64,000 nucleotides of DNA, from contig NZ_JAUTBL010000001.1 in the NCBI RefSeq assembly GCF_030819275.1, positions 806,001-870,000 of the forward strand, read 5' to 3'. How positions within the stretch are numbered: position 1 is the first letter of the stretch; each line of letters begins with the position of its first letter. A program made the translations under genes and the position numbers. Below the pieces are notes generated by a model. The model searched no databases, had not been told where the DNA came from, and worked only from the letters and a program-made list of their open reading frames with translations. Positions 11,290 to 64,000 of this stretch are shown piece by piece. The stretch is from Agrobacterium larrymoorei (GTDB taxonomy: Bacteria; Pseudomonadota; Alphaproteobacteria; Rhizobiales; Rhizobiaceae).

Positions 11290-11316
11290 TGTCCGACCGT
11301 ACAAATCTCGATGGAA

Positions 11317-11850: not shown

Positions 11851-11898
11851 ATCGCACGCCAAATCACTATCATACGCCGCGCAGCATTGGAGATCATC

Positions 11899-12900: not shown

Positions 12901-12981
12901 GGGCGGAGCTGATCGCGACCGGCTACCCGATTGACGGGCGCCGGTGGATGTCCTTCCTGCTTTTGAAACAATGATAGGCAG

Positions 12982-14280: not shown

Positions 14281-14320
14281 ACCGGTTTTCCTCCGGTTAT
14301 TGCTACAGCATCGGCCCGAA
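14280..14320. repeat. Intergenic hairpin plus rhizobial repeat motif (copy 1)
   Basis: A hairpin AACCGG/CCGGTT (14280-14298) is followed by the 18-base motif CTACAGCATCGGCCCGAA at 14303-14320. The same 18 bases recur exactly at 29139-29156. Both copies lie just after stop codons, as expected for small rhizobial intergenic repeats. Confidence 0.6.
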
Positions 14321-14335
14321 GGGGAGCACGGCGCT

Positions 14336-15467: not shown

Positions 15468-16060
15468 GGCGCCCCCTCAGTGCTGCCCTGACCAGACAGA
15501 GGCAGAATGACTTTCGCGACGGCGCCCTTCGCAAACCAGCCCGGAGCGGCATAGAGATTGTCCCGCGGACGAAAAACCTCACCCTGTACCGAGACGTCGA
15601 GCGACGAAGGCACCGGGGCATCGTCCTGAAGTTCCCACACAGCCGTCACTGTCTCTGGCATCATCGGCTGCAAGTCGCCGAGCAGATCACGATCCCGGTC
15701 GAGATAGAATGTCGGTCGCGGAGCGTCCTTGATGTTGTCGATCCTGACCACATCGCCGTAGATATTGGAGCTTTCCGCGGACCTGTTTTCGAGGCGCATT
15801 GTGACGGCCACCGCTTGTTTGCCTGGTGTCACTTTCAGCCCGTTCGGCATGAGAGAGATAATGCTGGCAGAAGCCAGCTCTACCTGCCAACGCCCGGCAT
15901 CGACGGACTTTGCAGCCTCCACGACCGGAACAATCTCGCTCTCGCGTCGCTCATACATGGAATAGCCGAGCGACAGACCGGCGGCAGCAAGACCGCCAGC
16001 CCCTGCAATCAGTTTTTTGAGCCGCCCTCTTCGGGACTGTTTTTCAATGTTCGCCACCAT
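15464..16060 (-). CDS. Small membrane-anchored protein of unknown function (first gene of a trio)
   Basis: A 198-residue protein. A basic N-terminus (KQSRRGRLKKL) precedes a single membrane helix (residues about 18-36), followed by a beta-rich soluble domain (AVAVTMRLENRSAESSNIYGD) comparable in type to the next gene's product. The stop overlaps the next start (ATGA). The three genes form a translationally coupled operon. No enzyme motif is visible. Confidence 0.65.
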   Translation of the reverse strand: MVANIEKQSRRGRLKKLIAGAGGLAAAGLSLGYSMYERRESEIVPVVEAAKSVDAGRWQVELASASIISLMPNGLKVTPGKQAVAVTMRLENRSAESSNIYGDVVRIDNIKDAPRPTFYLDRDRDLLGDLQPMMPETVTAVWELQDDAPVPSSLDVSVQGEVFRPRDNLYAAPGWFAKGAVAKVILPLSGQGSTEGAP

Positions 16061-16177
16061 TGCCGATCAGCGATATCCGCCCTTACAATGTCCACTCCAA
16101 AGAATACCGCGGAAGACAGCGGCAACCAATGTTTCCCTTGCAATTCCGGCTCAAGAATGACGGCGAAAATCCCGACC

Positions 16178-17107
16178 CTATTTCTTCTGGTCCAGCGAAT
16201 GGCGGCCGAAGTCCGGCGCATCGACGTCCTGGCCCGCCTGAACGATAGAGCGGCGAATATCGCGGGTGCGAGAAAATAGCTCGAACAGCTTGTCGCCCTC
16301 GCCCCAGCGGATCGCGCGCTGCAGATAGGCCAGGTCTTCCGAAAACCGCGCCAGCATTTCGAGGATCGCATCCTTGTTGTGCAGGCAGATATCGCGCCAC
16401 ATTGTGGGATCGGATGCCGCCAGTCGGGTGAAATCACGAAAGCCCGAGGCGGAGTATTTGATCACTTCCGACTCGGTGACCGTCGAAAGATCGTCCGCGG
16501 TGCCGACGATATTATAGGCGATGATGTGCGGAAGATGCGAGACGATCGCCAGCACCTTGTCGTGATGCTCCGGGTCCATCTCGTCAACGCGCGAACCGAG
16601 CGCCAGCCAGAAACCTTTCAGACGATCGAGCGCGGCAGCATCCGTGCCGGGCAGCGGCGTGAAGATGCACCAGCGATCGCGAAAGAGACCGGCAAAGCCG
16701 GCGTCCGGGCCGGATTTTTCCGTACCCGCCAGCGGGTGTCCGGGGATGAAATGCACATGCTCCGGCATATGCGGCGCCATCTGCGCGATGACGGATGCCT
16801 TTGTGGAGCCGACATCGGTCACGATCGCGCCCGCCTTCAGATGTGGCGCGATCTGCTTTGCCACATCTTCGGATGCGCCGACGGGAACCGAGACGATGAC
16901 GAGGTCGGCCTCCCTCACGGCATCAGCCACCGAGGTAGTGTAGGATGTCCCCAGTTCCAACTCCTCGGCGCGCTTCAGCGTCTCTTCGCTTCGCGTCGAG
17001 ACGACCACCTCGCGTGCGAGGCCGCGTTCTTTGATATCACGAGCAATGGACGAGCCGATCAGGCCGATGCCGATCAGCGCGATGCGTTCGAACAGAATGT
17101 CTGCCAT
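16178..17107 (-). CDS. tyrC: Prephenate/arogenate dehydrogenase (TyrA family)
   Basis: A 309-residue NAD(P)-dependent enzyme of tyrosine synthesis that oxidatively decarboxylates prephenate or arogenate. The N-terminal Rossmann motif is ALIGIGLIGSSIARDI. The catalytic histidine region is PGHPLAGTEKSGPDA, and the second conserved block includes DEMDPEHHDKVLAIVSHLPH. ATG at 17107 shares a TGATG junction with hisC; a GTG three bases earlier is also possible. There is no chorismate mutase or ACT domain, typical of monofunctional cyclohexadienyl dehydrogenases. Coupling with hisC is common in alphaproteobacteria, where the aminotransferase can serve both pathways. Confidence 0.94.
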   Translation of the reverse strand: MADILFERIALIGIGLIGSSIARDIKERGLAREVVVSTRSEETLKRAEELELGTSYTTSVADAVREADLVIVSVPVGASEDVAKQIAPHLKAGAIVTDVGSTKASVIAQMAPHMPEHVHFIPGHPLAGTEKSGPDAGFAGLFRDRWCIFTPLPGTDAAALDRLKGFWLALGSRVDEMDPEHHDKVLAIVSHLPHIIAYNIVGTADDLSTVTESEVIKYSASGFRDFTRLAASDPTMWRDICLHNKDAILEMLARFSEDLAYLQRAIRWGEGDKLFELFSRTRDIRRSIVQAGQDVDAPDFGRHSLDQKK

Positions 17108-18213
17108 CACGCCTGACCCATAAACTCTTTGAGCGCGGCGATGACGCCGAGATTGGCCTCTTCCGAGCCGACCGTCATGCGCAGCGCATTGGCAAAGCCG
17201 TAGCCCCGCACCGCGCGCAGGATATAGCCACGGCGGCTCAAGAACTCGTCAGCATCGGCAGCACGCTTGCCATCCTCATCGGGGAAATGAATGAGAACGA
17301 AGTTGGTGACGGAGGGGGTGACCTTCAGGCCAAGCTCGGTGAAGACCGAAGTCAATCTGTCGAGCCACAGAAGGTTATGCGCTACGGCCTGCTGCATGAA
17401 GGCCTGATCGCGAATGGCCGCAGCGCCTGCGGCAATGGCAGGCGCATTCATGTTGAAGGGGCCACGCACGCGGTTCAGCGCATCGATGATGGCAGCCGGT
17501 GCATACATCCAGCCGACGCGCAGCGCTGCCAGACCGTAGACCTTGGAGAAGGTGCGGGTCATGACCACGTTGCCGTTGCCGGAAACGAGCTCAAGACCCG
17601 CTTCATAATCATTCTTGCGCACATATTCGGCGTAAGCCGCGTCGAGAACCAGAATGACATTCTTCGGCAGCGTCGCCTGGAGACGACGGATTTCCGAAAC
17701 CGGAACATAGGTGCCTGTCGGATTGCCCGGATTGGCGATGAACACCATCTTCGTCCTCGGCGTAACCGCGTCGATGATCGCGTCGACATTGACCGTGCAA
17801 TCCGTTTCCTTGACGGTGACCGGCGTGGCGCCTGCGCCCATGATCTGGATCTTGTAGACGAGAAAGCCGTGTTCGGTGATGATCGCCTCGTCGCCCGCAC
17901 CGAGATAGACGTGGCAGAGCAGGCCGAGCAATTCATCCGAACCATTGCCGCAGATGATATTGGCCGGGTTCAGGCCGTGAACATCGGCAATCGCCTGACG
18001 CAGTGCCACTGCCTGACCGTCCGGGTAGATCTCAAGATTGGACGCCGCCGCCTTGAAGGCTTCGATCGCCTTGGGGCTCGCGCCAAGCGGTGTTTCGTTG
18101 GAGGAGAGCTTATAGACCTTGGCCACACCGTCCACATGCTCCTTGCCCGGAACATAGGCGGCGATATCCAGGATACCCGGACGCGGAACAGGTTGGTTAA
18201 GCTCTGCACTCAT
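17107..18213 (-). CDS. hisC: Histidinol-phosphate aminotransferase
   Basis: A 368-residue class I/II PLP aminotransferase. The PLP lysine is in [17 protein letters not shown] (fold-type I signature SKxxGLxxxRxG). Substrate and cofactor residues are seen in [21 protein letters not shown] and [10 protein letters not shown]. It transfers the amino group to imidazole-acetol phosphate in histidine synthesis and, being coupled to tyrC, probably also handles aromatic keto acids. It is the first gene of the pair; the upstream methyltransferase is 54 bases away on the same strand. Confidence 0.95.
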
Positions 18214-51674: not shown

Positions 51675-52559
51675 ATGCCCAGCCAATCCACCGGACTTCT
51701 CTACGCCCTTGGGGCGTTTTCCATATTTGCCGTACAGGATGGCATTTCCAAACATCTCGGCCAGTACTACCCGCCCGTCTTCATCGTGATGCTGCGCTAC
51801 TGGGCCTTTGCCGTCTTTGCGATTGTCCTCGCCGCACGCTCTCACGACGGGCTGAAGGCAACGATGCGCTCCAAGCGGCTCTTGCTGCAGATCAGCCGCG
51901 GCGTGCTGCTTGCGGCTCAGATTGTTCTCTCAATTTTCTCGTTCAGGCTGGTGGGTCTCGCCCACACACATTCCATCTTCGCCTGCATCCCATTGATCGT
52001 CGCAGCACTCTCCGTTCCAATGCTTGGGGAGAAGGTCGGCTGGCGCAGATGGTGCGCCATCCTCGTCGGCTTCATCGGCGTGCTGATCATCATCAACCCA
52101 GGTGAAACGGGCTTCGATCTGACATTCCTGTTGACCTTTGTCGCAGCCTTCATGCTGGCGCTCTATGGCGTGATGACAAGGCTGGCCAGCCGCACCGATA
52201 CCGCCATGACCAGCTTCTTTTATACCGGTGTTGCCGGTGCAGCCGCGCTGACACTGATCGGCCCGTTCTACTGGGTCAACATGGTGCCACATGACTGGCT
52301 GTGGATGCTGGCGCTCTGCATCACCGGCATGAGCGGCCATTACCTGTTGATCCGCGCTTTCGAGCTGGCGGATGCGGCCTCTGTCCAGCCCTTTTCCTAC
52401 TATCAGCTGGTGCTGGTCTCCATCGTCGGCGTCACGATCTATGGTGAAGTGCTCACCGCCCATATGGTGATTGGCGCGGCTATCGTCATCGCAGCAGGTC
52501 TCTTCACCATCTGGCGCGAGCAACTCACCGCCAGAAGACGCCGACTTCAAGGATTATGA
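51675..52559 (+). CDS. DMT-superfamily transporter (EamA family)
   Basis: A 294-residue inner-membrane protein with ten predicted helices in two EamA repeats: the first begins LLYALGAFSIFAVQDGISKHLG, the second near FLLTFVAAFMLALYGVMTRLA. It resembles exporters of amino acids or other metabolites in the RhaT/YdcZ-type group; the substrate is unknown. ATG 51675 is the first start with full homology. Its 3' end overlaps the convergent arcB gene by 6 bases. Confidence 0.9.
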   Translation: MPSQSTGLLYALGAFSIFAVQDGISKHLGQYYPPVFIVMLRYWAFAVFAIVLAARSHDGLKATMRSKRLLLQISRGVLLAAQIVLSIFSFRLVGLAHTHSIFACIPLIVAALSVPMLGEKVGWRRWCAILVGFIGVLIIINPGETGFDLTFLLTFVAAFMLALYGVMTRLASRTDTAMTSFFYTGVAGAAALTLIGPFYWVNMVPHDWLWMLALCITGMSGHYLLIRAFELADAASVQPFSYYQLVLVSIVGVTIYGEVLTAHMVIGAAIVIAAGLFTIWREQLTARRRRLQGL

Positions 52560-53642
52560 CAGCGCGATCCGACTCTCAGTGTCGGCAGCAGACATCGCCG
52601 CCTCGCATCGAAGCAGCATGCCATAAAGATCGCGTGGCTCATCCGGATCGGCAAGAAGATCGAGTTCTTCGAACAGGCCGGTCTCCATCAGCTTGGAGCG
52701 CACGTAGCGCAGCGCCGAAAAATCCTCGATGGCGAAGCCCACACTGTCGAACAGCGTGATCTGCCGCTCGCTCTTGCGACCCACCGTCTTGCCGGCCATG
52801 ACCTGCCACAACTCGATGACCGGATGGTCTGCATCCAACTGCTGGATCTCCCCTTCGATCCGCGTCTGCGGCGGGTATTCGACGAAAATATCCGAGCGCA
52901 GCAGGATGTCGCGATGCAGTTCGGTCTTGCCGGGGCAATCACCGCCGACGGCGTTGATGTGAACGCCGGGGCCGACCATGTTGTCGGTCAGGATCGTGGC
53001 ATATTGCTTGTCTGCGGTGACGGTGGTGATGATATCGGCACCCTCGACCGCCTGTTCAGCGCTGTCGCAGATGGTGATGGAAAAGCCGAGCCCGCGTAAG
53101 TTTGCCTCGCATTTGCGGCTAGCCAGCGGATCGATATCGTAAAGCCGCAACTGATCGACACCGAGGATCGCCTTGAATGCCCGCGCCTGGAACTCGCTCT
53201 GCGCCCCGTTGCCGATGATTGCCATGGAACGTGCATCGGCCCTCGCCACATGCTTCGCGGCAACGGCAGAGGTGGCAGCGGTCCTGAGCGCCGTCAGGAT
53301 CGTCATTTCGGACAGCAGCATCGGATAGCCGTTGCCGACATCGGACAGAACGCCGAAAGCCGTCACCGTCTGCCGGCCATCGCGGGTGTTCTTCGGATGC
53401 CCGTTGACATATTTGAAGCCGTAAAGCGTGCCGTCACTTGTCGGCATCAACTCTATCACCCCTTCCTGCGAATGGGAGGCGACGCGCGGTGTCTTGTCGA
53501 AGCTCTCCCAGCGCAGAAAATCCTCTTCGATCACGTCCGCAAGTTCACGCAAGAATGTGTCGATGCCAACCTTCAGCACCAGCTTCATCATATGATCGAC
53601 GCTGACGAAGGGAACGACGTTCAGTTTTGCAATCGCTGTCAT
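52554..53642 (-). CDS. arcB: Ornithine cyclodeaminase
   Basis: A 362-residue NAD-dependent enzyme that turns ornithine into proline and ammonia. Landmarks: VSVDHMMKLVLKVG at the N-terminus, GVIELMPTSDGTLYGFKYVNGHP, the Rossmann segment SMAIIGNGAQSEFQARAF and NAVGGDCPGKTEL, where the catalytic aspartate resides. It follows arginase by 12 bases, so the two convert arginine to proline, as in the Agrobacterium arcAB pathway. Confidence 0.94.
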   Translation of the reverse strand: MTAIAKLNVVPFVSVDHMMKLVLKVGIDTFLRELADVIEEDFLRWESFDKTPRVASHSQEGVIELMPTSDGTLYGFKYVNGHPKNTRDGRQTVTAFGVLSDVGNGYPMLLSEMTILTALRTAATSAVAAKHVARADARSMAIIGNGAQSEFQARAFKAILGVDQLRLYDIDPLASRKCEANLRGLGFSITICDSAEQAVEGADIITTVTADKQYATILTDNMVGPGVHINAVGGDCPGKTELHRDILLRSDIFVEYPPQTRIEGEIQQLDADHPVIELWQVMAGKTVGRKSERQITLFDSVGFAIEDFSALRYVRSKLMETGLFEELDLLADPDEPRDLYGMLLRCEAAMSAADTESRIALS

Positions 53643-53654
53643 GATCTTTCCTCC

Positions 53655-54575
53655 TCAGCCTGCGCGCGTTGGGCGGTCGAGAACGCGCTTGCCCATCAGG
53701 CTTGCAGTCAGATCCACCATCAGCGTCGCAGTGCGTCCACGTTCATCGAGGAACGGGTTCAGCTCCACCAGATCGAGGCTACTGACGAGACCGCTGTCAT
53801 GCAGCATCTCCATCACCAGATGCGCCTCACGGAAGGTGGCGCCGCCTGGCACGGTGGTACCGACAGCCGGTGCAATCGACGGATCGAGAAAATCGACATC
53901 GAAGCTGACATGCAGCAGCCCGTTGGCCGCCTCCACCCTTGCCAGGAACTCCCGCAACAGGACGGCCACGCCATGCTCATCGATCATGCGCATATCATGC
54001 ACGGTGATACCGGAACCGCTAAGCGCCGCACGCTCCGCCGGATCGACGCTGCGAATACCGATCATGCAGACATTGTTCGGATCGACAGGATGCGCAAGCG
54101 GCGGGAAGTAACCCGCAAAGCCACTTCTCCCCGTGTAATAGGCGACCGGCGTTCCATGCAAATTGCCGCTCTTCGTCGTCTCAAGCGTGTGAAAATCCGT
54201 GTGGGCATCCAGCCAAAGCACGAAAAGCGATCGTCCCTGCTCGGCAGCCCGGCGCGACAGCCCGGCAACGGTGCCCGCGGACAGCGCGTGGTCCCCGCCA
54301 AGGAAGATCGGCATGGCATCCGCGCTTTCGAGATAGGCTGTCTCGATCAAGGTCTCGGTCCAGGCGACCGTTTCGGGAAGGTGATGCACCGCCGCGTTCG
54401 GATGCTGGAGATCGCGAAAAGGCGCGGGCGACACATTGCCGAGATCGCTGACATGATGCCCCAACTCTTCAAGCGCCCCCTTCAGCCCTGCGACCCTGAG
54501 AGCGCTGGGCCCCATCTCGCATCCGAGCTGCCCTGCCCCGATCTGCAACGGAACACCGATCAACTTGCAGTCCAT
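53655..54575 (-). CDS. arcA: Arginase
   Basis: A 306-residue manganese enzyme of the ureohydrolase family that splits arginine into ornithine and urea. Metal ligands are visible in FLGGDHALS (His), LWLDAHTDFHT (Asp, His, Asp) and SFDVDFLDPSIAP (Asp, Asp). ATG 54575 has GGAG at 8 bases; the frame extends to 54617 without support. It is the first gene of the arcAB operon, divergent from an Lrp-type regulator. Confidence 0.95.
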   Translation of the reverse strand: MDCKLIGVPLQIGAGQLGCEMGPSALRVAGLKGALEELGHHVSDLGNVSPAPFRDLQHPNAAVHHLPETVAWTETLIETAYLESADAMPIFLGGDHALSAGTVAGLSRRAAEQGRSLFVLWLDAHTDFHTLETTKSGNLHGTPVAYYTGRSGFAGYFPPLAHPVDPNNVCMIGIRSVDPAERAALSGSGITVHDMRMIDEHGVAVLLREFLARVEAANGLLHVSFDVDFLDPSIAPAVGTTVPGGATFREAHLVMEMLHDSGLVSSLDLVELNPFLDERGRTATLMVDLTASLMGKRVLDRPTRAG

Positions 54576-54704
54576 CACGTCATCTCCAGTTCCCGATTTT
54601 TGATCATGACACCACATTCAGATGGCAGATTGAATGGTAAGGATTGGCAAATTTTCCCATCAAGCTTATCATTCTGATCAATAGCCCTACCAATTTGGTT
54701 TTCG

Positions 54705-55142
54705 ATGGATCATCTTGACGAAAAGCTCATCACCCTTCTGCGCCACAATGGCCGAAGAAGCATATCGGACCTTGCGATCGAAACCGGCGCCTCCCGCGCC
54801 ACGATACGATCGCGCATGGAGAAGCTGGAGCAAAACGGCACGATCATCGGCTACACCGTCATCCTGCGCGCCGACGCGGTCGAGAACGCAATACGCGGCA
54901 TCATGATGATCGAGATCGAAGGCCACGTCACCGACCGCGTCATCCGCGCCCTCGGCGGCATTTCGGAGGTCTCCGAAATCCACTCGACCAACGGCCGCTG
55001 GGACCTGATCGTCGAACTGAGCGCCGCAACGCTGACCGAATTCGACGCGGTACTGCGCCGCATCCGCCTCGTCCCCGGCATCACCGGCAGCGAAACCAGC
55101 CTGATCCTCTCGACACAGAGATCCACCAAAGCAAGGCTTTGA
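54705..55142 (+). CDS. Lrp/AsnC-family regulator, probable regulator of arcAB
   Basis: A 145-residue regulator. The winged helix-turn-helix (residues 1-60) reads LITLLRHNGRRSISDLAIETGASRATIRSRMEKLEQ, and the ligand-binding AsnC/RAM domain follows (GIMMIEIEGHVTDRVIRAL, GRWDLIVELSAATLTEFD). It is divergent from arcA with 129 bases between; such a regulator usually activates the neighbouring operon in response to arginine or ornithine. The exact effector is inferred from position only. Confidence 0.9.
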   Translation: MDHLDEKLITLLRHNGRRSISDLAIETGASRATIRSRMEKLEQNGTIIGYTVILRADAVENAIRGIMMIEIEGHVTDRVIRALGGISEVSEIHSTNGRWDLIVELSAATLTEFDAVLRRIRLVPGITGSETSLILSTQRSTKARL

Positions 55143-55251: not shown

Positions 55252-55325
55252 TGGGGAATAGTTCAATGGTAGAACAGCGGACTCTGACTCCGTCGATCTT
55301 GGTTCGAATCCAGGTTCCCCAGCCA
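55252..55325 (+). tRNA. tRNA-Gln (anticodon CTG)
   Basis: A complete 74-base cloverleaf: acceptor stem TGGGGAA/TTCCCCA, D-loop with AATGGT, anticodon loop CTCTGAC (CTG), T-loop GGTTCGAATCC, discriminator G and encoded CCA. Confidence 0.97.
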
Positions 55326-55516
55326 ATTCTCCCTAAATGCCCTTAATTCCTGATTTTCCAGTCGTGCCGGATATCGTTTTGGCATCATTGGCGACCTGAT
55401 GCCTAGGCGAAATCGCCCTGAGATTGCCTCCAGGGCATCATAAATTTGAGGTGCATAAGTCAGCCGTAGGCCGTTTGCACCCCAGCTTTTATGTTTGAGT
55501 GATTTTGCCCATAGGT
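55326..55516. other. Stretch between tRNA-Gln and the IS remnant
   Basis: 190 bases with no recognisable gene. GATGCC (55397-55402) and GGGCATC (about 55433-55439) can form a stem with a long loop. No copy of the tRNA 3' end was found elsewhere in the window, so no attachment-site pair can be shown. Confidence 0.35.
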
Positions 55517-55862
55517 TCATTGAGTCTGACTGCAGTTCGAGGTGATGGCTGGAGGAGATGTCGCGCGGGGGATTGGGAACAGGTTGGCAATCGAATTGTG
55601 AATGGAGACGAAGCGCTTCCAATGGCGTCGTGGCTTGAAGCGCTTCATAATCCGTTCTCACCATCGGAGTGGCTGGAGGGAATTCTCCGCCCGCTTGTTC
55701 AAGCCTTTATGCGAGCGGTTATCGATACCAAGCATGGATCTCTGCTTTCGCAGCGACGTTGCCCCAGAACCTCCAACACGAAATCGTCCCCATCGACGGA
55801 GCGCCAGAGCCATTGCTTTGCAGCGGATCGAACCAATGGCCTCGTCACAGGCGTCCTTCAAC
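55517..55862 (-). pseudogene. Decayed IS6-family transposase
   Basis: Pieces of an IS6/IS240-type DDE transposase are spread over two frames. One reads KDACDEAIGSIRC, which corresponds to the first catalytic Asp region. The next frame reads KQWLWRSVDGDDFVLEVLGQ. After a gap that removes the second Asp region, the first frame continues HKGLNKRAENSLQPLRW, then a TGA stop, then ERIMKRFKPRRHWKRFVSI and HNSIANLF. The N-terminus is missing. The element is inactive and marks past insertion at the edge of the accessory block. Confidence 0.8.
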
Positions 55863-55906
55863 ATCCATGGGCGAAGCTCGCTGGCGATTAAGCGCAACCT
55901 TTAATA

Positions 55907-56701
55907 TTATAAGGAACTTCCCTTTTTTTGCACATGCGCCAATTCCTCTCTATCAAGCATCACACTCAAGGTGAAAGTCGTCAAAGCAATCGCTGCCCCT
56001 GGCCAGAACATAAGTCGAGGATGATCGAAGATAAAGGCGCGGTATTCAAAGAGCATGGAACCCCAATCGGGCTTCGATGGATCCGATCCGAGGCCGATGA
56101 AAGCCAGCGAAGCATATGAGACGATGGCTAGACCAGCTTGATTTCCCGCATAGGTCACCATCAAAGGCAACGTGTTGGGCAGCACGTGTCGTGTCATCAT
56201 TCTAGCGGGTGACACACCAAGACTATGCGCCGCGATGATAAATGGCTGCCCTAAGACGCGTTTTGTCAAAGAATGCGCGAGGAGAGAATGGGGCCCAATC
56301 GCGGCAAGCCCGAGCGCAAGCCCCGCACTCAAGGGGGAGAGGCCGAAAAGCGCTGCGGCAACCAGCGCGATGATCAGCGTCGGCACCAGCACGAAAAACT
56401 CGCAACTACGCAAGATCAAGGCTTCTACCCAGCCACCCAGCACGGCAGCAGACGTGCCCAGAAAACTGCCCACGACAAAGCCTATCGAGCAGACGGCGAA
56501 GATCACACAACCGGTTCTCCACCCACCGACCAGAACGCGGGAAAGCAGATCACGCCCCAGTTGATCTGTTCCTAGAAAATGCTGGCTACTACCAGACGCG
56601 TAGCGGTCCAGAAGACTGACCGCGTTCGGATCATGCGGTTGCCATATGCCACCGGCGATCAGAAACGCAAAAACCAGGAGCAGCAATCCGTAGCGGATCA
56701 T
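55907..56701 (-). CDS. Peptide/nickel-type ABC transporter permease (NikC/DppC-like)
   Basis: A 264-residue inner-membrane permease. It begins MIRYGLLLLVFAFLIAGG and has FLGTDQLGRDLLSRVLVGG, the hallmark of DppC/NikC subunits, and the coupling loop 'AAHSLGVSPARMMTRHVLPN'. Five membrane helices are likely. The start overlaps the previous permease stop (ATGA). It is the last gene of the operon; the usual DppDF/NikDE ATPase genes do not follow, and the decayed transposase begins 45 bases further on. Confidence 0.9.
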   Translation of the reverse strand: MIRYGLLLLVFAFLIAGGIWQPHDPNAVSLLDRYASGSSQHFLGTDQLGRDLLSRVLVGGWRTGCVIFAVCSIGFVVGSFLGTSAAVLGGWVEALILRSCEFFVLVPTLIIALVAAALFGLSPLSAGLALGLAAIGPHSLLAHSLTKRVLGQPFIIAAHSLGVSPARMMTRHVLPNTLPLMVTYAGNQAGLAIVSYASLAFIGLGSDPSKPDWGSMLFEYRAFIFDHPRLMFWPGAAIALTTFTLSVMLDREELAHVQKKGSSL

Positions 56702-57615
56702 AAACGAGTTCTCGGATCGAGATGATACATGACAAGCTGGGCTGCTGCGTTCAACAATAGCATCCACAGCGCGATGACCATCACATAAGCCTGCAGGACC
56801 ATCTGGTCCCGAGCCGCTATGCTCTGAACCAGAAACTGGCTGATCCCCGGAAGGCCGAACAAGATCTCCATCGTGGCGGTCGATCCTACCACCCACCCAG
56901 CTTCAGAACGGACGGCTGCGAGCAGCGCGTACAGTGCGCTCTGGCGGCCATGACGCCACAACGCGGCACCTTGGGAAAGCCCCTTCGCCAACGCTGTGAC
57001 GAAGTGGGGCGACCGTGTAGTCGCTATAAGGTCGTGGCGGTAGACGCGTGCCAGCGTGGCAACCGAATGAAGTGCTATGAGCAGCACCGGCAGGATCAGT
57101 GAGGTTGCATCGTTGGAAAACGGTTTTATCCACTTCAGCTGCACTCCCAGCACCCATAGCAAAATCAATCCTGACCAGAAACCCGGCACTGCCTGTACGA
57201 AAACGGATAGAGCGCGACTAAATTTGTCTACGGCTCCCCCGGGGGACGCAGCGGCAAAGAAGCCAAGCGGGATGGCAAGGATCACTGCCAGTAAAAGGCC
57301 GGACAGGCCCATGAAGAGCGATAATGGCAGACGCTCAGCAAATTCTCGCAATACCGGCTCTCCGGTGCGAAAGGACCGGCCCCAGTCTCCTGTGAGGAAA
57401 TTGGACAGCCAATGGAGGTAACGGAACGGAATAGGTTGATCCAGCCCCCATTCGGCGCGCAGAGCAGCATATGTGGCTTCTGTTGCCGGAAGATTCCAAA
57501 GATGTATGGCAATGGAGACGGGATCAGATGGCATCATGGCGATAACCGTGAAGGCGGCGAATGAAATCGCCACCAGCCCGATGACCGATCTGATAAGGGG
57601 CCAAGTCAAATTCAC
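56698..57615 (-). CDS. Peptide/nickel-type ABC transporter permease (NikB/DppB-like)
   Basis: A 305-residue permease. It has the N-terminal pattern FAAFTVIAMMPSDPVSIA, the segment LRAEWGLDQPIPFRYLHWLSNFLTGDWG (split over two conserved blocks) and the coupling loop with ALAKGLSQGAALWRHG. The start is GTG at 57615, overlapping the binding-protein stop as GTGA; the frame extends to 57669 inside the binding-protein gene. It pairs with the next permease to form the channel. Confidence 0.9.
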   Translation of the reverse strand: MNLTWPLIRSVIGLVAISFAAFTVIAMMPSDPVSIAIHLWNLPATEATYAALRAEWGLDQPIPFRYLHWLSNFLTGDWGRSFRTGEPVLREFAERLPLSLFMGLSGLLLAVILAIPLGFFAAASPGGAVDKFSRALSVFVQAVPGFWSGLILLWVLGVQLKWIKPFSNDATSLILPVLLIALHSVATLARVYRHDLIATTRSPHFVTALAKGLSQGAALWRHGRQSALYALLAAVRSEAGWVVGSTATMEILFGLPGISQFLVQSIAARDQMVLQAYVMVIALWMLLLNAAAQLVMYHLDPRTRL

Positions 57616-59117
57616 TCGCTCTTCGCTTCGCCTATATCTGCTCGCAAGACGTGGTAATCCGATCCCCACGGTTCATATCCTTGGAGCCGTTTCGAGAGTC
57701 CAACATGCCATATCGGTGACACGAGAAACGAGACAGGCACATCCTCAAACAATTTTTGCTGCGCTTGAAGCGCAATGCTGGCGCGCGTCTCCGGGTTGCT
57801 CTCCGACGCGAAGCGATCGACGATGGCGTCAAACTCCGGCGATGCGTATTTGGCATAATTCAGCGAAGCGCCACTGCGCAGCATCGAATTCATGAAGAAA
57901 GCCGGATCGCCGCTTGGCGCCGTGTGTTGCGCCCAAAGTGCGATATCGAAGTCACCAGCGGCGGCGACCTGCTGGATGTTTTCGACCACCTGTGTGTCGA
58001 GTTCAACACCCACTCTGGCGAGTTCGGCCTTCACGACGGGAAGCATCGTAACGAGATCGGGACGTTGCGGATAGGTGATCGCCAGCAGGCGCAGCGGCTG
58101 TCCATCCTTTTCAAGGACACCGGTGGCGCCCTTTTTCCATCCCGCTTCCTCAAACAGCCTGGCCGCATGGTTCAAGTCTGTCACTCGGGCATCTTTGCCA
58201 GCAAACGAGAAGTATGGGGCATAAGCGCCCGTCGCTGGCTCTCCGCCGTTGATGGCCGCCGCCAATTCACGTCGGTCAAACGTCAGATCAAGCGCCTGAC
58301 GTATCCTGACATCTCTCAACAGTGGGCGGGTTGTGTTGAGAAATGCCAGATATTGATATCCAACTGGAAAGGACTTGATAGTCAGATCGGGATTGTTTTT
58401 CAGGCGGCTGACGACCTCTGATGGCAGTCCGAAAGCAAGATCCAACTCTCCCGCTTCCAGCGCCAACGTCATACTCTGCGCGTCCCCGAACTTTCGGAAC
58501 TCAACCTGCGAACGCTTGTCTGAACCGGGAAAATAGGTGTTCGGCTCGAGTGTAATGGAAGCGTCACTTTTGAAGGCAGCGATTTTGTAGGGGCCGGTGA
58601 ACGTTGCCTCACCATTCGCCGAGAGTGTGTAAGCAACCATCGGCCACTCCGCAAACAGAGCAGGGATGTAGGGTATCGGTTTTTCTGTTTTCACCTTGAG
58701 CGTTAAGTCGTTGACCGCTTCGAAGCTTAGCTTCCCACCAGTGGCAAGGGCGGCTTTGTTTTTCGCAAACGTGTTCTCAAAACCAGTTGCCAGAGCCTTT
58801 GCCGTGACGGCAGATCCGTCAGAAAACATGCGGCCTGGCCTAAGCTCTATCGTCCACGTAACATCGTCGTCGCGCTTGGCACTTTCAGCCAGCTCCGGAA
58901 CCAGTTTGCCGTCGCGGTCGACGGTAAACAGATTTTCGCCAACACCATGACTCGTCAATGCCCAACCGTTCGAACCTTTGGCCGGATCAGTGCCACTGGT
59001 GATGTAGGTCGCACCAACATGGACTGCGTCCGCAGCGACGGCAGTTGAAGCCGCTGCCATTATGCCAACGGCAGCGAGCCCAGCAAAAGCAACGCAGGAC
59101 GTGAATCTGGATAACAT
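57612..59117 (-). CDS. ABC transporter substrate-binding protein, family 5 (peptide/nickel/cobalt type)
   Basis: A 501-residue exported binding protein (SBP_bac_5). The signal peptide runs MLSRFTSCVAFAGLAAVG to about TAVAAD. The fold's segments are LVPELAESAKRDDDVTWTIELRPGRMFSDGS, RQALDLTFDRRELAAAINGG and YPQRPDLVTMLPVVKAEL, each typical of NikA/DppA-like proteins. SD GAGGAG precedes ATG 59117. Its position behind a cobalamin riboswitch suggests cobalt, a cobalt complex or a corrinoid precursor as ligand; a S. meliloti cobalt ABC system (CbtJKL) is, as I recall, also under B12 control, but equivalence is not shown. Confidence 0.88.
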   Translation of the reverse strand: MLSRFTSCVAFAGLAAVGIMAAASTAVAADAVHVGATYITSGTDPAKGSNGWALTSHGVGENLFTVDRDGKLVPELAESAKRDDDVTWTIELRPGRMFSDGSAVTAKALATGFENTFAKNKAALATGGKLSFEAVNDLTLKVKTEKPIPYIPALFAEWPMVAYTLSANGEATFTGPYKIAAFKSDASITLEPNTYFPGSDKRSQVEFRKFGDAQSMTLALEAGELDLAFGLPSEVVSRLKNNPDLTIKSFPVGYQYLAFLNTTRPLLRDVRIRQALDLTFDRRELAAAINGGEPATGAYAPYFSFAGKDARVTDLNHAARLFEEAGWKKGATGVLEKDGQPLRLLAITYPQRPDLVTMLPVVKAELARVGVELDTQVVENIQQVAAAGDFDIALWAQHTAPSGDPAFFMNSMLRSGASLNYAKYASPEFDAIVDRFASESNPETRASIALQAQQKLFEDVPVSFLVSPIWHVGLSKRLQGYEPWGSDYHVLRADIGEAKSE

Positions 59118-59118
59118 C

Positions 59119-59916
59119 TTATCTCCTCGGATCAATTTGGGGATTTCTCAGGCGCTGCTTGTGGCCTGTGGGGTGATACGCATAAGTCTCGACCACACGG
59201 CCGCCGAGTAAGTGGCAGGATATGATGTCATCCACGGACTGCTCGGTCACTCCGCCGTAATAGGTACCCTCTGGAAACACCTGTAATACCGGTGCCAGAC
59301 TGCAGGGCCCGAGGCACGTCGACTTCGCCGTCATAGTGCCTTCGCCGACAATGCGCAGTTTCTGACGTTCCTGCTGATTGCGTAGATGGTTCCAGATCGT
59401 ATCGGCACCTGCGCTGTTGCACGTTGCACCAGAGCAAACGAGAACACGGTACCGCTGCTGCGGCACGATCGTTCCCTCGAGAGCAACAGCTTTTCCTTCG
59501 GCACTCTCAACGATTTTCGGCTCCCTCAGAAGATCAGCAACCAGCGGTAACATGAAGGGAGAGGAGGCGATGTCTTGAGTGATCGATACCCCAGGCCATG
59601 GCTGTTCCGCGGAGCCTCGCCAGCGCTTTATCGATTTGTCTAACCATCGGAAAAAGCTGGGTTCCATCGGCAAAATCAACGGAAGGATGATGATGTGGTC
59701 AAGGTTTCGGGCCACCAGGGCAACCAACCCTTCGAACAATGAGGGCGTACCTTGTTCGGTAAATGCAAAACTGACGACGTCCTCGGGGCATAACTCGCCC
59801 AGTTGCGCTGCCAGTCGCTGCATTTCCCTATGGGGCGCGGCCGCAAAGGCGGATTTTGCAATCAGGAGAATTCCCCGCCTTGCTGGTCGATCTGGATGAT
59901 GTTGTTCGCTGCGCAC
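59119..59916 (-). CDS. CbiX-like domain fused to a thioredoxin-like [2Fe-2S] ferredoxin domain
   Basis: About 265 residues from a GTG at 59916; the frame is open to a GTG at 60009 and the true start is uncertain. Residues about 15-140 resemble the CbiX/SirB chelatase fold (GILLIAKSAFAAAPHREMQRLAAQL, VALVARNLDHIIILPLILP). The C-terminal part has four cysteines in the (2Fe-2S) ferredoxin-like arrangement VCSGATCNSAGAD ... STCLGPCSLAPVLQVFP, then GTYYGGVTEQSVDDII. The histidine expected in the first strand (GHGS) is replaced by AKSA, and the second metal-binding histidine is not seen. Chelatase activity is therefore doubtful. It is the first gene behind the cobalamin riboswitch. Confidence 0.75.
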   Translation of the reverse strand: MRSEQHHPDRPARRGILLIAKSAFAAAPHREMQRLAAQLGELCPEDVVSFAFTEQGTPSLFEGLVALVARNLDHIIILPLILPMEPSFFRWLDKSIKRWRGSAEQPWPGVSITQDIASSPFMLPLVADLLREPKIVESAEGKAVALEGTIVPQQRYRVLVCSGATCNSAGADTIWNHLRNQQERQKLRIVGEGTMTAKSTCLGPCSLAPVLQVFPEGTYYGGVTEQSVDDIISCHLLGGRVVETYAYHPTGHKQRLRNPQIDPRR

Positions 59917-60024
59917 TGCCTGAATCTCAATTGGAGGAGACAGCAAAAATGATGGCGCATCTGACCACACCGTCAGCACGCGATCATTCCTGTGGCACAC
60001 CCCGACCACGGAATTGTATATCGT

Positions 60025-60182
60025 CAGGCAGGTCTCCTGGCTCGCGGGTCAATGCCGTTTTCCGTCTTCCCGGCAATTCTGCCAGTGACATATCGGACAA
60101 ACGGCTCGCCGCTTACAGTTGCGGGACAGCTCCGGTTTTGCACCGAATTCCCTCTTAGCTTCCACCGAGGTGAAAGAACCAT
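60025..60182 (-). promoter_or_regulatory. Cobalamin riboswitch
   Basis: Read on the minus strand, the conserved blocks occur in order: the peripheral segment with GAAGCTAAGAGGGAA, CGGTG and AAACCGG, the B12-box-like GCTGTCCCGCAACTGTAAGC, GCCGTTTGTC, GTCACTGG, GGGAAGACGG, and the closing GACCCGCGAGCCAGGAGACCTGCC. This is a full AdoCbl-type aptamer. It precedes the CbiX-ferredoxin and ABC genes, which should be off when cobalamin is plentiful. Confidence 0.95.
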
Positions 60183-60723
60183 GACCGGCCAAATCTACAT
60201 GGCGCGCCATTCCTGTCAACGGCGCAACACCATCGCAAAAGCGTGGCGGACCAACTTGCAATGAAAAAGGATTTCCATTGATCATTTGCAGACCGGCGCG
60301 CGACGCTGAAGCTCAAATGTCTGTACGAACGTCCCTTAGAGTGAATTTACCGCGCCCGCTCGACACGATGATCTTGGGCGGGACAGCACTGGAGTTTCTT
60401 CGTCAAATTCTGGCATTCGAGGAGTGCACCGAGGTGGGTTTCTTCATTTTAAGTCACAAGAATTCTCATTCAGCCGATGTGTAATGTTATACCATTTATG
60501 ATAAAGTCATTGCGACGGCAAGCTCGAAGTTCGCCACGTTGGAAAAAGGAATCGACGCCAGGTGTGGATGGAGCCGGTTTCGACTATTGACGCTTCCGCA
60601 TACCGTCATGGGCTTTCAAGACTGCCCATGAGCCGGTAAGCGCCAGCACCACTAAGCCCAACGTCCGTCGACAGGCTCCATTCCTTTTCCATCAACGAGG
60701 CGGGGTTGCCGCTGTGACATCAG
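60183..60723. other. Region between the riboswitch and the TonB receptor gene
   Basis: 540 bases that should hold the promoter of the riboswitch operon. A short plus-strand frame (60278-60484, 68 residues) has no recognised family and runs against all neighbours. The sequence from 60480 to 60499, TGTAATGTTATACCATTTAT, resembles the rhizobial Zur-box type palindrome in its first 12 bases. No terminator for the TonB gene was clear. Confidence 0.4.
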
Positions 60724-63549
60724 TCAGAATTTTGCGGTCAGGTTGAGCCGGAACGTTCGACCCGGTGAAGGCATCAGTCCGAGCGTCAGCGTATCCATGT
60801 AGTAGGTGTCCGCAACATTATCGATGGCGGCGTCGATCTTAAGGTTGTCGTTGACCTTATAGCTCGCGAAAAGGTCAACCACAGTGTAAGGTTTCCACTC
60901 CACATGGGTCAGGCTTCCACCTGTGGAGTTTGATACCCCCAAAGCGGTCGTGGGACGGTTGCCGATGTAATTCAACCTGCCGCCGAAGGTAAGAGTCTCG
61001 TCCAGAGCGCGCATGCCAAGAGTGAGCGAGAGGCTGTCTTTCGGCGGAAGCTGGTTGATGACATAACTATTGGCAACGCCGCCGCTTGAGCAAAGGGCTG
61101 TGTACGACGTCCCAGAAACCTGTCCGGGACGAGAGCAGAACTCTGTTCGTAGGTAACGGGTGTAGGACAGGTCGCCAAAAAAGTCGCCCGCGTCGTAGGA
61201 TGCTGCCAGCTCAACACCCTCCAACTTGGCATAATCGATATTGACGATGTAGGCTCTCCCTTGATTGAGAGATCTGGTGAGATAGTTGTCCACCCGATTA
61301 TGGAAATAGCTGGCCTTCAGTTTGAGTTCGTCTCCTGCGGTGAAGATGCTATCGCTCATCACATTAGATCCAAACTCCCATGTCCGAGCGTGCTCAGGCC
61401 GCAGGGGATTGGCTTGGCCCGGTGGAAAATCGCCGCCGTAGAACGAAAATCCTCGTGTGGTCTCGAAAAGGCTGGGCATACGCAGAGCTTCGGCATACTT
61501 CGAGTAGAACTGGATACCGTCCCAGGGTTCCACCATAACGCTGCCCATGGGAGCAAAGCCGCTATCTTCATAGGATTGATAGACGCCGGAGTTCGAGGTG
61601 GTCACGGCGGGAAGATTGGTCGAGCCGGGATGGGCTCGACGATATGCGGCCCGTTCAGCCGAGGAATTGAAGCTCAGCACCTGGCCATTGTAGCTCAATG
61701 GATAGGTGGTCGTTTCCCATGGGCGAGTGTCTCTCGATTTGAATTCTGAATATCTGAGAGAACCGTTCAACGTCAGCCATTGCGTCGGCTTCCATTCACC
61801 GGAGGTGAAGATGCTTGCTTCACTCCGGTTTCCCTCTCGCGCATTCGGTAGATTTGCTCCTTCGCCTGGCTCGATAAGCTCGTGCGTGAAGGAGCCTCCG
61901 TAGTTGAACGACAGGTCGCCCCAAGCGGTGTCGAAACGTGACGTATTCTCCGCATTGATGCCCCAGCGCCGGTTCGCAGCACCATAGTAGTTGTCAAAAG
62001 TGGGATCAGCCGGCGTGCCGACAGCGGGCCAATACCATTGCATAGGCGTTGTGAGATCGGCGTTCGTCATCCATGCAGACAGTTTGACGTTCACGAGATC
62101 TGAATCCTCAGGATTCCAGCCATATTTGGCTGTATACGTATCCATCTCTACCTGGCTCAACGTGGCTTGATAGGCCCCATAATCTCCTGAATATACGATC
62201 TGGGACGGCATGATCTCTCCATATCGGCTTTCATAATGAATGTAGCCGAGATCGATCTTCTGATCGTAGGGTAACCGAACGGTGGTTTTTAAGAGGGTCG
62301 AGGTATTGCTCTGCGACGTGTTGAGAACCTCTTCCCCCGCACGGAACCGGTTCAGGCCGGAGAACCCGACCCCAGTCCAACCGGACCGGGGGAGACTGCA
62401 AGTCAACTGTTCTGTGACCCTGCCACAATCAGGAAACAGAACTGGACTGGGCACATCGCCCTTCGTGCCGGCGTGGTAATTACCGTTCTGGCGACGGGCA
62501 AAGCCAGCGACGATATCGAGGTTTTCAGATCGATATGCAGCGGCAACACTGCCGTTGCCGCCGGTTGGCTCCAAAAACCCAGGCCTGTCCATACCGTCTG
62601 ATCCCCCAAACGAGCCGGGCAACGATGCGCTTGGATAAGCCTGCTGGCCGTATAACCCGCCTGTCGTGTAGAGTGGCGGAATGGATGAGCTGTTGGAGTT
62701 GAATCCCCCCTTGAAGCGTACACCGAAGCTTTTATCGGGAAGGAGAATGTCGTCGGGCGTGATCGTATTCATTCGAACGACGCCACCGATCACACCTGCT
62801 CCATCCGCGCTGCTGTTCGGACCCTTCTCCACCATGACACTGCCAATGAAGTCCGGATCTATGAAAGAGCGCCCCGCGACGCCTGCATATCCCCGATAGA
62901 CGGTGGTTTCCTGTTGCGCACCGTCCACGACCACTGGGACGCGCCCCTGCCCTTGCATACCGCGTATGTTTACGTCCAGCGCAGCACCATTGCGGTTATC
63001 GCCATTGAGCACACCTGGTGTTCCGGAAAGCATGTCGCCCACAGAGGTGCCGCGAAACCGTTCGATCTTCTCCCCAGAAATATAGGTGCTGGATCCGGCT
63101 GTCCGATAAGGATCGTCCGCCAGGGTTCTGGATCCTTTGATCACGATGGGGCGAAGAACTGTCGCACCCTCGGCGGACGAGGCACCACTGTCGACGTGAG
63201 CGCTAATGATGACGGTACGAGGATCCAGGAAACGGTAGGTCAGGTTCGATCCTGCAAGGATTTCGGCAAGCGCCCTCTCAGCAGTGAGAGTGGAGTGTAT
63301 CCCGAGGGTCCGATGATCGCGCACCGCTGCCGCATCGACAGAGATTTGAAGCCCAGATTGCTGGCCAAACAGGGTCAGGGCGCTCGCCAGTGGCTGTGGA
63401 GCAATCGCAAACGCCTTCCGCGCGTCAGCCATCTCCTGCGCCCTGGCGTGCCCGGTCATCGCCACAAGAGCACCATTGAGCGCGGTTGCCATCAGCAACG
63501 CCGTTGTCCAGATCGCGCGAATTGTCCTGTTGTTTCTCTTCTCAGCCAT
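60724..63549 (-). CDS. TonB-dependent receptor with N-terminal STN signalling domain
   Basis: A 941-residue outer-membrane receptor. Signal peptide to about residue 38 (GHARAQ), STN domain at about 45-105 (FAIAPQPLASALTLFGQQSGLQISVD), plug domain with IRGMQGQGRVPVVVDGAQQ and GSVMVEKGPNSS, and a 22-strand barrel ending in NLTAKF. The STN domain passes substrate binding to a FecR anti-sigma factor, and a FecR gene lies just upstream. The barrel has haem-receptor-like boxes (YAEALRMPSLFE and NPLRPEHARTWEFG) but no histidine between them. Start ATG 63549; the longer frame to 63630 lacks a signal peptide at its N-terminus. Confidence 0.93.
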   Translation of the reverse strand: MAEKRNNRTIRAIWTTALLMATALNGALVAMTGHARAQEMADARKAFAIAPQPLASALTLFGQQSGLQISVDAAAVRDHRTLGIHSTLTAERALAEILAGSNLTYRFLDPRTVIISAHVDSGASSAEGATVLRPIVIKGSRTLADDPYRTAGSSTYISGEKIERFRGTSVGDMLSGTPGVLNGDNRNGAALDVNIRGMQGQGRVPVVVDGAQQETTVYRGYAGVAGRSFIDPDFIGSVMVEKGPNSSADGAGVIGGVVRMNTITPDDILLPDKSFGVRFKGGFNSNSSSIPPLYTTGGLYGQQAYPSASLPGSFGGSDGMDRPGFLEPTGGNGSVAAAYRSENLDIVAGFARRQNGNYHAGTKGDVPSPVLFPDCGRVTEQLTCSLPRSGWTGVGFSGLNRFRAGEEVLNTSQSNTSTLLKTTVRLPYDQKIDLGYIHYESRYGEIMPSQIVYSGDYGAYQATLSQVEMDTYTAKYGWNPEDSDLVNVKLSAWMTNADLTTPMQWYWPAVGTPADPTFDNYYGAANRRWGINAENTSRFDTAWGDLSFNYGGSFTHELIEPGEGANLPNAREGNRSEASIFTSGEWKPTQWLTLNGSLRYSEFKSRDTRPWETTTYPLSYNGQVLSFNSSAERAAYRRAHPGSTNLPAVTTSNSGVYQSYEDSGFAPMGSVMVEPWDGIQFYSKYAEALRMPSLFETTRGFSFYGGDFPPGQANPLRPEHARTWEFGSNVMSDSIFTAGDELKLKASYFHNRVDNYLTRSLNQGRAYIVNIDYAKLEGVELAASYDAGDFFGDLSYTRYLRTEFCSRPGQVSGTSYTALCSSGGVANSYVINQLPPKDSLSLTLGMRALDETLTFGGRLNYIGNRPTTALGVSNSTGGSLTHVEWKPYTVVDLFASYKVNDNLKIDAAIDNVADTYYMDTLTLGLMPSPGRTFRLNLTAKF

Positions 63550-63703
63550 TTTTTGAACGCCCCTAATGCACTTCCGAGGGAAAGCGGACGGCAGCGCCGT
63601 CGACCTCCTGAACAAGAAACGGATGGGCATTCGGAATTTTCAGGAAAAAATGCAGTGCGGGGAAAACAACCAGGTGGAAGAGCTTGAATTCGGGCGCAAA
63701 CTC
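63550..63703. other. Spacer between fecR and the TonB receptor gene
   Basis: 154 bases with no gene. In Fec-type loci the sigma factor (FecI) acts on a promoter in this position; no sigma consensus could be picked out by eye. Confidence 0.35.
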
Positions 63704-64000
63704 CTATCGAGCGGAGACGACGGCGAGCCACGATCCCGCGGTATAGATGTTCGCTCCCTGCGACTGCGCCACGGCGCGAAGCGCCGTGATGGGGTCGGCA
63801 AGATCGTAGACCCCGGTCACTCGCTTGTCGCGTAGGCCAGGTGCCGCGACGATGATACGGCCACGGTAATACCGGTTCAGCGCATCGATAACATCACCGA
63901 CAGCAACGTCCTCGACCATCAGCGTGCCGTTGCGCCATCCGCCGACCGCAGAAGTCGAGGTCGTGCCGCGCTCGATCGTACCTTTCCAGTCGACGCGCTG
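63704..64000 (-). CDS. FecR-family anti-sigma regulator (5' part outside window)
   Basis: The frame is open to the window edge (98 residues visible). The C-terminal FecR pattern is clear: GGWRNGTLMVEDVAVGDVIDALNRYYRGRI split around the conserved W and L-x-x-V motifs, VTGVYDLADPITALRAVAQ and the final strand WLAVV. FecR spans the inner membrane and links the STN domain of the receptor to an ECF sigma factor. The fecI gene would be further to the right, outside the window. Confidence 0.88.
   Translation of the reverse strand, partial: QRVDWKGTIERGTTSTSAVGGWRNGTLMVEDVAVGDVIDALNRYYRGRIIVAAPGLRDKRVTGVYDLADPITALRAVAQSQGANIYTAGSWLAVVSAR

Follow-up and report, generated by a model that had tools for sequence, protein, structure and literature searches.

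A B12-riboswitch operon with a CbiX-like/[2Fe-2S] fusion protein and an importer without its own ATPase gene, a candidate for cobalt uptake in Agrobacterium larrymoorei

Gene content and transcription units

The stretch of DNA analysed here (the window) is 64,000 nucleotides long and corresponds to positions 806001-870000 of one contig in the 4.88 Mb, two-contig genome of Agrobacterium larrymoorei; our subject is a cobalamin (B12) riboswitch near its end, the four genes behind it, and their neighbours. Read along the minus strand, the locus runs from a sigma-70-type gene through FecR and an STN-type TonB-dependent receptor to a gap of ~520 bases, followed by the riboswitch and the genes for a CbiX-like/[2Fe-2S] fusion protein, a family 5 solute-binding protein, a NikB-like permease and a NikC-like permease; beyond the last of these lie the remnant of an IS6 transposase and then, on the opposite strand, a tRNA-Gln gene (Table 1). 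An earlier note, made from the sequence alone, had named these components, and they hold up: both permeases, the SBP_bac_5 protein, the fusion and the receptor match Pfam profiles, the riboswitch is found by Rfam, the tRNA by ARAGORN and RF00005, and the IS6 remnant by blastn to annotated IS6 transposases. Its statement that all genes lie on the minus strand is correct for the protein genes and incorrect for tRNA-Gln.

The features belong to two separate units. The first spans 60199 to 55907 on the minus strand and consists of the riboswitch, a leader hairpin and four packed genes: one base separates the fusion stop from the binding-protein start, and there is a four-base overlap in each of the two gene pairs that follow. 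The second, made up of the sigma factor, FecR and TonB receptor genes, is placed upstream of the riboswitch. In reading order the receptor gene ends (stop at 60724) before the riboswitch begins, which makes the latter the leader of the fusion operon. The proposal that B12 controls the fusion and importer genes is thus supported, the riboswitch being the leader of a packed predicted operon.

Table 1. Features of the locus, in window coordinates; the operon is listed first
Feature	Position	Strand	Evidence	Remark
Cobalamin riboswitch aptamer (RF00174)	60010..60199	-	cmscan 133.7 bits (gathering cut-off 31.5)	leader of the four-gene operon
Leader hairpin ending in a U-run (ATCATTTTTG)	59940..60000 (approximate)	-	covariation, window and 14 of 26 relatives	probable intrinsic terminator
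CbiX-like / thioredoxin-like [2Fe-2S] ferredoxin fusion, 265 amino acids	59119..59916	-	PF01257 44.4 bits (cut-off 24.8); PF01903 23.6 bits (cut-off 22)	from GTG 59916, the most likely start
Periplasmic family 5 solute-binding protein, 501 amino acids	57612..59117	-	PF00496 222.7 bits	NikA/Opp type
NikB-like permease, 305 amino acids	56698..57615	-	PF00528 91 bits; Opp2B 235.9 vs 350	start overlaps binding-protein stop
NikC-like permease, 264 amino acids	55907..56701	-	PF00528 73.9 bits; Opp2C 175.2 vs 300	start overlaps NikB stop; last gene of the operon
STN-type TonB-dependent receptor, HasR/FecA class	60724..63630	-	STN 36.6, Plug 65.5, barrel 131.1 bits	separate unit
FecR, C-terminal part (375 amino acids in full)	63704..64000	-	NF007296 32.7 bits, below cut-off 385	runs off the window
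IS6-family transposase remnant, broken	55431..55846 (about)		two-piece blastn match	between NikC and tRNA-Gln; outside the system
tRNA-Gln (CTG)	55252..55325	+	ARAGORN; RF00005 67.7 bits	neighbour, outside the system

Conservation of the riboswitch operon and its missing ATPase gene

Named genomes were scanned with a 29-sequence alignment of the fusion (the window's protein and 28 of 120 listed proteins, from 276 matches in all) and two peptide patterns, which gave 74 loci, 73 of them with a full fusion; the other, L094, was dropped as it holds the ferredoxin half only. Distant relatives of the fusion escape these two patterns and are missed. Genes at the loci were counted by tblastn, and the sorting into groups was done by eye. 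The arrangement of the window (type i) is found at 26 of the 73 loci, in many genera, with 55-81% identity in the importer genes, so that a conserved co-occurrence of the fusion, the binding protein and both permeases is supported. Five loci carry another binding protein-NikB-NikC set accompanied by ATPases (type ii), 13 carry BtuF/C/D-type genes (type iii; L091 is without a BtuF-like match), and at five the fusion stands behind NrdA-NrdB. The remaining 24 fall into none of the four groups; they include two short contigs (L054, L062) and loci whose ATP-binding cassette (ABC) genes are on the other strand or kilobases away (L033, L034, L036, L055, L056, L061, L070, L088, L089). Within the genus Agrobacterium, 8 of 37 genomes have the fusion.

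A B12 box stands just upstream at all 26 type-i loci. For the whole set, a box on the same strand occurs within 7 kb upstream at 54 of 73 loci and within 400 bases at 39; as a control, the pattern matched 8 times in reversed sequence as against 73 times in the real loci. In Rfam scans, all 11 type-i relatives examined (of 26) have the riboswitch, as do six of the eight type-iii loci examined (L048, L067, L075, L080, L081 and L085, not L050 and L066).

The riboswitch match in the window covers the complete aptamer model (1-189 of 189), and one promoter-like site (60219-60192; 0.5 sites expected) extends over the start of the aptamer. Between the aptamer and the first codon of the fusion sits the leader hairpin, whose 3' arm ends T-rich. 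In the window and 14 of the 26 type-i relatives, its 15 pairs are formed in 90.1% of 223 cells (80.3% in shuffles), and 24 cells show changes on both sides, compared to a shuffle mean of 10.0 and with none of 500 shuffles as high; all slid versions of the pairing score lower. Six pairs have both-side changes, a number reached by 62 of 500 shuffles, and a simple terminator scan gave one site, which is not above chance. From the comparison of these leaders, we suggest that the hairpin is a probable intrinsic terminator, and its conservation is also what leads us to propose that B12 would trigger it.

The importer genes resemble those of NikABCDE and Opp-type systems, with which the operon has in common an SBP_bac_5 binding protein and a pair of NikB- and NikC-like permeases. 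The best NCBIfam model for the binding protein is Opp5A_nikA, at 264.7 versus a cut-off of 600, and its closest solved structure is 3t66; the NikA, NikB and NikC equivalog models give 134 versus 393 (TIGR02294), 196 versus 447 (TIGR02789) and 159 versus 358 (TIGR02790), so that, unlike in NikABCDE, no Nik cut-off is reached. The other difference is that NikD and NikE are lacking, and no ABC ATPase gene of any kind was found in the window operon, a point on which the earlier note is silent. The same holds for the relatives: at none of the 26 type-i loci does an ATPase gene directly follow NikC, and tblastn finds no ABC ATPase match in the 4 kb after NikC at 22 of them. The exceptions are three loci with an ATPase on the opposite strand (L022, L024, L031) and one, L093, where a complete second system with its own binding protein follows. 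In the upstream direction, within 7 kb and counting same-strand genes, a complete Opp system is found at L035; at L041 and L043 there are ATPases of another kind, 3-5 kb away. Annotated plasmids of Shinella, Paracoccus and Neorhizobium show the same gene order, with an unrelated gene after the second permease.

The lack of an ATPase and the IS6 remnant directly after NikC might together suggest a decaying importer, in which the ATPase genes have disappeared and the proteins still encoded have no function or a different one. We consider this most improbable. The ATPase-less operon occurs in 26 loci of many genera, and residues of the permease coupling loops (K, G, W and H in NikB; G, H and P in NikC) are kept in 26 of 26, which indicates that the lack is old and that the genes stayed under selection. 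Likewise, an ATPase loss caused by IS6 and limited to this strain was rejected: since the type-i relatives are also without an ATPase directly after NikC, the gap is not due to IS6 damage.

We thus turn to ATPases encoded elsewhere. All 18 type-i genomes tested have Opp-type ATPases at other sites, with 14 to 92 matches each, and so does the genome of the window, where they stand mostly beside permeases (L155, L161, L164 and L167 are less clear-cut). ATPase sharing is known for sugar importers (PMC7658222, PMC4519317), and the importer of the operon is probably powered in a similar way, by an ATPase from one of the many Opp/Dpp systems. A single donor was considered and rejected, as the complete Opp systems near some operons (upstream at L035 and L170, downstream at L093) are not mutually orthologous. 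These conserved family 5 importers without an ATPase gene of their own would be a clean case in which to test such sharing outside sugar importers.

Several smaller observations came from the survey. The type-ii binding proteins (L029, L045, L046, L051, L053) come from five genera and share 76-90% identity, suggestive of recent transfer, and L029 has a fused NikC-ATPase gene. Directly upstream of the riboswitch are CobW-family GTPase genes in L022 (8558-9763, by Pfam) and L029 (8200-9402, by similarity), while the gene in that place in L172 (5520-6758) is annotated as the metallochaperone AztD and gave no Pfam match. At L060, L064, L071 and L092 a second small ferredoxin-like gene, 26-39% identical to the fusion, is convergent to the fusion gene. 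At the five NrdA-NrdB loci (L058, L063, L068, L073, L079) the fusion follows these genes behind a B12 box and has no obvious transport link; Pfam confirms NrdA in L068 and NrdB in L063.

The fusion protein and its proposed cargo

The longest open reading frame of the fusion opens at 60009, directly at the aptamer end. We place the start most likely at GTG 59916, as the relatives P0011 and P0042 start at its counterpart, after the leader hairpin; the records vary in this respect, the start of P0001 lying further upstream and those of P0006 and P0020 corresponding to 60009. The protein is 97% identical to one of Agrobacterium sp. SORGH_AS 787 (among the matches listed). Of its two domain matches, PF01257 is well above the cut-off and PF01903 just above it; in the 29-member alignment they are present in 29 and 27 members, respectively. 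A predicted structure (mean predicted local distance difference test score, pLDDT, 75.6; predicted template modelling score, pTM, 0.59) retrieves thioredoxin-like ferredoxins and CfbA/CbiX in Foldseek, with alignments over about half of its length or less. The CbiX-like half gives a template modelling (TM) score of 0.77 to 3lyh by target length, and up to 0.79 to CfbA.

The C-terminal half is like the thioredoxin-like [2Fe-2S] ferredoxins (NuoE/HydB type; Aquifex 1m2a) in its PF01257 domain and four cysteines, and the cluster cysteines C192, C197, C232 and C236 are kept in all 73 fusions; the differences from these ferredoxins are the added CbiX-like domain and the frequent position behind B12 riboswitches. 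The N-terminal half has its fold in common with the class II chelatases CbiX, SirB and CfbA, whose catalytic histidines are His10 and His74 in A. fulgidus CbiXS (PMC7689651). When these columns are placed through an alignment of the fusion to 3lyh, the first (position 52) holds K in 40, R in 30 and G in 1 of 71 sequences, and the second (position 118) holds H in none of 73. E85, G87, P89, P114 and E116 are nearly or fully invariant across the fusions. A chelatase role for this half was rejected, both catalytic histidines being absent; with these gone, the fusion is unlikely to be a normal chelatase and is probably CbiX-like in fold only. The names given to it in the records examined go no further than '(2Fe-2S) ferredoxin domain-containing protein', 'NAD(P)H-dependent oxidoreductase subunit E' or similar, and a literature search of titles and abstract beginnings found no published description of it; the term 'cobaltophore' gave nothing.

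As to the cargo, CbtJKL provides the closest comparison. CbtJ is BtuF-like, and the system has a binding protein and permease of other families than the window operon, together with its own ATPase. In Sinorhizobium meliloti, CbtJKL is an ABC cobalt importer behind a B12 riboswitch (PMC7689651), so that a cobalt cargo is plausible for the present operon as well. The two resemble each other in B12-riboswitch control, in combining a binding protein with an ABC permease and in their rhizobial setting, with cobalt as the cargo there and as the proposed cargo here. Unlike CbtJKL, the window operon has family 5/NikBC parts, a fusion gene and no ATPase, and its binding protein belongs to PF00496 instead of the BtuF-type PF01497. 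A B12 riboswitch before NikABCDE has been predicted in two Firmicutes, C. tetani and D. hafniense (PMC2667541).

On this basis, we think it somewhat better than even that the riboswitch and the four genes form a B12-repressed operon for the uptake of cobalt or a small cobalt complex, working with ATPases supplied in trans and a redox or relay protein. The substrate is suggested by the RNA switch, the resemblance to Nik and Cbt systems and the CbiX-like half of the fusion, all of which are read from sequence. When adenosylcobalamin is scarce, the leader would be open and all four genes would be made; with adenosylcobalamin bound, the U-run hairpin would, judging by its conservation, end the transcript. 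The family 5 binding protein would catch the ligand in the periplasm, and the NikB/NikC-like pair would carry it across the inner membrane, powered by the ATPases encoded elsewhere. In the cytosol, the fusion would receive the cargo and then reduce a Co(III)-type complex to free cobalt; alternatively, it might relay Co(II) to insertion by CobN/CobW.

B12-riboswitch control would equally suit corrinoid salvage, where the operon would import cobinamide, other corrinoids or breakdown products, which the fusion would reduce or strip of the upper ligand; the company of the fusion in other lineages, BtuFCD-type genes and TonB receptors, fits as well. We nonetheless regard salvage as unlikely, for the window importer is of the family 5/Nik and not the BtuFCD type, the two TonB receptors of BtuFCD-type loci that were scored (L080 and L083) fit the siderophore model (240.6 and 232.9 versus 223.5) and are far under the BtuB model (110 and 69 versus 599.7), and 47 of 50 genomes tested have a match to CobN. 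To a similar degree we doubt that the operon answers B12 starvation by importing nickel, another metal chelate or a peptide for B12-independent enzymes such as class Ib ribonucleotide reductase and MetE. Among solved structures, those nearest to the binding protein are of nickel and oligopeptide binders, the Shinella operon adjoins nrdHIE and metE with a B12 box before each, and there are the 5 of 73 loci where the fusion follows NrdA-NrdB. This would leave the CbiX-like half unexplained, and BtuFCD-type sets, in some cases with siderophore-type receptors, can take the place of the importer, an indication that the cargo is a chelate.

The BtuFCD-type companions also bear on what the fusion might do. 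The type-iii importer is BtuFCD-like, with FecCD permease and ABC ATPase identified by Pfam in L050, and a TonB receptor gene precedes the importer behind the B12 box in L075, L080, L081, L083 and L085. A B12-controlled outer-membrane route, as the earlier note had it, fits other lineages, in which one riboswitch serves siderophore-type TonB receptors together with BtuFCD-type genes and the fusion; it does not fit the receptor of the window. Uptake of cobalt through TonB-dependent receptors has been proposed in print, partly under B12 control: in Novosphingobium for a receptor behind a B12 riboswitch with NiCoT and CobW (PMC7689651), and in Methylobacterium for IcuABC (PMC3621897). These proposals resemble the type-iii loci; the passages on them mention neither the fusion nor family 5 importers, and the window receptor differs in lying outside the B12 unit. 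A BtuF-type binding protein search in the class gave a match in 1 of 385 genomes, which is not independent, as the contig appears to be L066, with which it agrees in length and gene order.

A parallel comes from the Ponticoccus plasmid p-SCP4 (L171), where the binding protein of a B12-riboswitch operon has 68% identity to its L050 counterpart and the ATPase gene is followed by one for a FhuF-like [2Fe-2S] protein. This is the position that the fusion takes in L080-L085, and it suggests a redox step. FhuF siderophore-iron reductases are likewise [2Fe-2S] proteins after an ABC chelate importer, a placement comparable to that of the fusion; unlike the fusion, they belong to an unrelated family, and the plasmid case is single and weak in its matches (PF06276 26.6 versus 25.2, PF11575 27.2 versus 20.5, TIGR03951 27.1 versus 63.85). 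We tentatively raise the possibility, which we hold to be well short of likely, that a family of B12-repressed importers for cobalt chelates ('cobaltophores') has the fusion as its common cytosolic component, that the fusion reduces or pulls apart the cobalt complex as FhuF does ferric siderophores, and that it has been combined in turn with ATPase-borrowing family 5 importers, complete Opp-type importers and siderophore-type TonB/BtuFCD systems.

A number of points weigh against the cobalt-uptake reading and its extension. Both cobalt uptake and B12-repressed expression rest on sequence comparison. The operon is not the sole candidate cobalt importer, since CbtA was found in 23 of 25 type-i genomes tested (and in 3 of 5 type-ii and 4 of 13 type-iii genomes), and the genome of the window has CbtA and CbtB behind another riboswitch as well as a CobN gene. 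Nor does CobN discriminate much, with matches in 47 of 50 fusion-bearing genomes versus 128 of 150 of the order, counts that may include related chelatases; the CbtA and CobN tests covered 50 of the 73 loci. The binding protein resembles nickel and peptide binders most closely and reaches no NCBIfam cut-off, and no shared donor ATPase could be picked out, no best match in the genome of the window standing out. The fusion is not tied to transport alone, given the 24 ungrouped loci of 73 and the five that follow NrdA-NrdB, and 19 of 73 lack a same-strand B12 box within 7 kb upstream. With regard to the lost histidines, an H stands two residues past the second chelatase column (position 120) in 15 of 73 fusions, and at residue 60 in 28 of 71. 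The FhuF-like parallel is a single case, read from one Ponticoccus plasmid locus, and in its closest relative, L050, the fusion precedes the importer genes.

If the cobalt-uptake reading is true, a dedicated redox or relay protein would release cobalt from complexes after their import; such a step is known for iron siderophores, and our literature searches found no description of it for cobalt. It would also offer a testable role for a fusion so far annotated only in general terms.

Two further observations concern the BtuFCD-type systems. Luciferase-like monooxygenases (PF00296) accompany them in L048 (13812-14801), L075 (9015-10031), L080 (10780-11748) and L171 (12814-13872), and could cut a chelator. 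The genome of the window has two BtuFCD-type sets of its own, L138 ~6567-9443 and L157 ~14285-17117; the former follows a B12 riboswitch, and its binding protein gives 362 bits against EitA, where the cut-off is 640. Also in L157, at ~9802-13919 and behind a B12 riboswitch, are genes weakly like NrdB (21%) and NrdA (30%) and two further small genes, probably nrdI and nrdH.

The neighbouring receptor set and the flanks

The receptor upstream of the operon has the composition of a FecA-type transducing receptor, with an STN domain (PF07660, 36.6 versus 28.4) and adjacent FecR and sigma factor genes. FecR itself had been named in the earlier note; the window contains its C-terminus only, and the full gene (L007 9704-10831) matches PF04773 with 85.6 bits versus 24. 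The FecI-like, sigma-70-type gene before it is outside the window (L007 10835-11407; Sigma70_r2 45.7, r4_2 40.1 bits). The receptor scores 358.4 versus 316.85 in the heme/hemoglobin receptor subfamily TIGR01785, and its closest solved structure is HasR (E 2e-57). It has the STN, plug and barrel domains and the FecR and sigma-factor genes in common with HasR/FecA transducing receptors; unlike HasR, it has Y and F at the two heme-histidine positions, which we take to be residues 189 and 603 of HasR (alignment read by eye). A heme receptor was thus rejected despite the TIGR01785 score, the heme histidines being missing, and so was a B12 receptor, as the BtuB model TIGR01779 gives 52 bits versus 599.7.

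The earlier note had joined this receptor to the importer in one outer-membrane-to-cytosol route, so that the STN receptor, FecR and FecI would deliver the cargo through the outer membrane. The receptor set is adjacent to the operon on the same strand, and at L048 a FecI-FecR-TonB set, its receptor 29% identical, is divergent beside a fusion operon of another type, the BtuFCD type. The receptor is not behind the riboswitch, and Rfam finds no second riboswitch in 20 kb around the receptor, FecR and sigma gene. TonB matches with four receptor queries, within up to 10 kb on each side of a locus (less than 1 kb upstream in L028), were obtained at 12 of 74 loci and at 1 of 26 of type i; this sole type-i match, in L049, is a partial one of 167 amino acids at 32% identity, ~5 kb upstream. 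Similar receptors (E 1e-100 or better) occur in 11 of 39 genomes of the genus, that of the window included, and of 12 other receptor places in the genus the five examined, one of them in the same genome, each have their own FecI- and FecR-like genes. With a receptor relative near only 1 of 26 type-i operons, a single route is not supported, and we consider a single system very improbable; the note's own refuting observation, that the receptor and ABC parts never occur together in relatives, is largely what is seen, short of the partial type-i match and the pairing at L048. The receptor set is a separate iron- or chelate-type unit, a neighbour of the operon and not part of it.

On the other side of the operon, the IS6 remnant consists of two pieces with 76-80% identity to 15 records listed, nine of which are annotated as IS6 family transposase. 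Beyond the tRNA-Gln gene, at 52554-55142 of the window, lie a gene that is presumably ornithine-cyclodeaminase-like, an arginase gene and a divergent Lrp/AsnC regulator, likely an arginine catabolism set.

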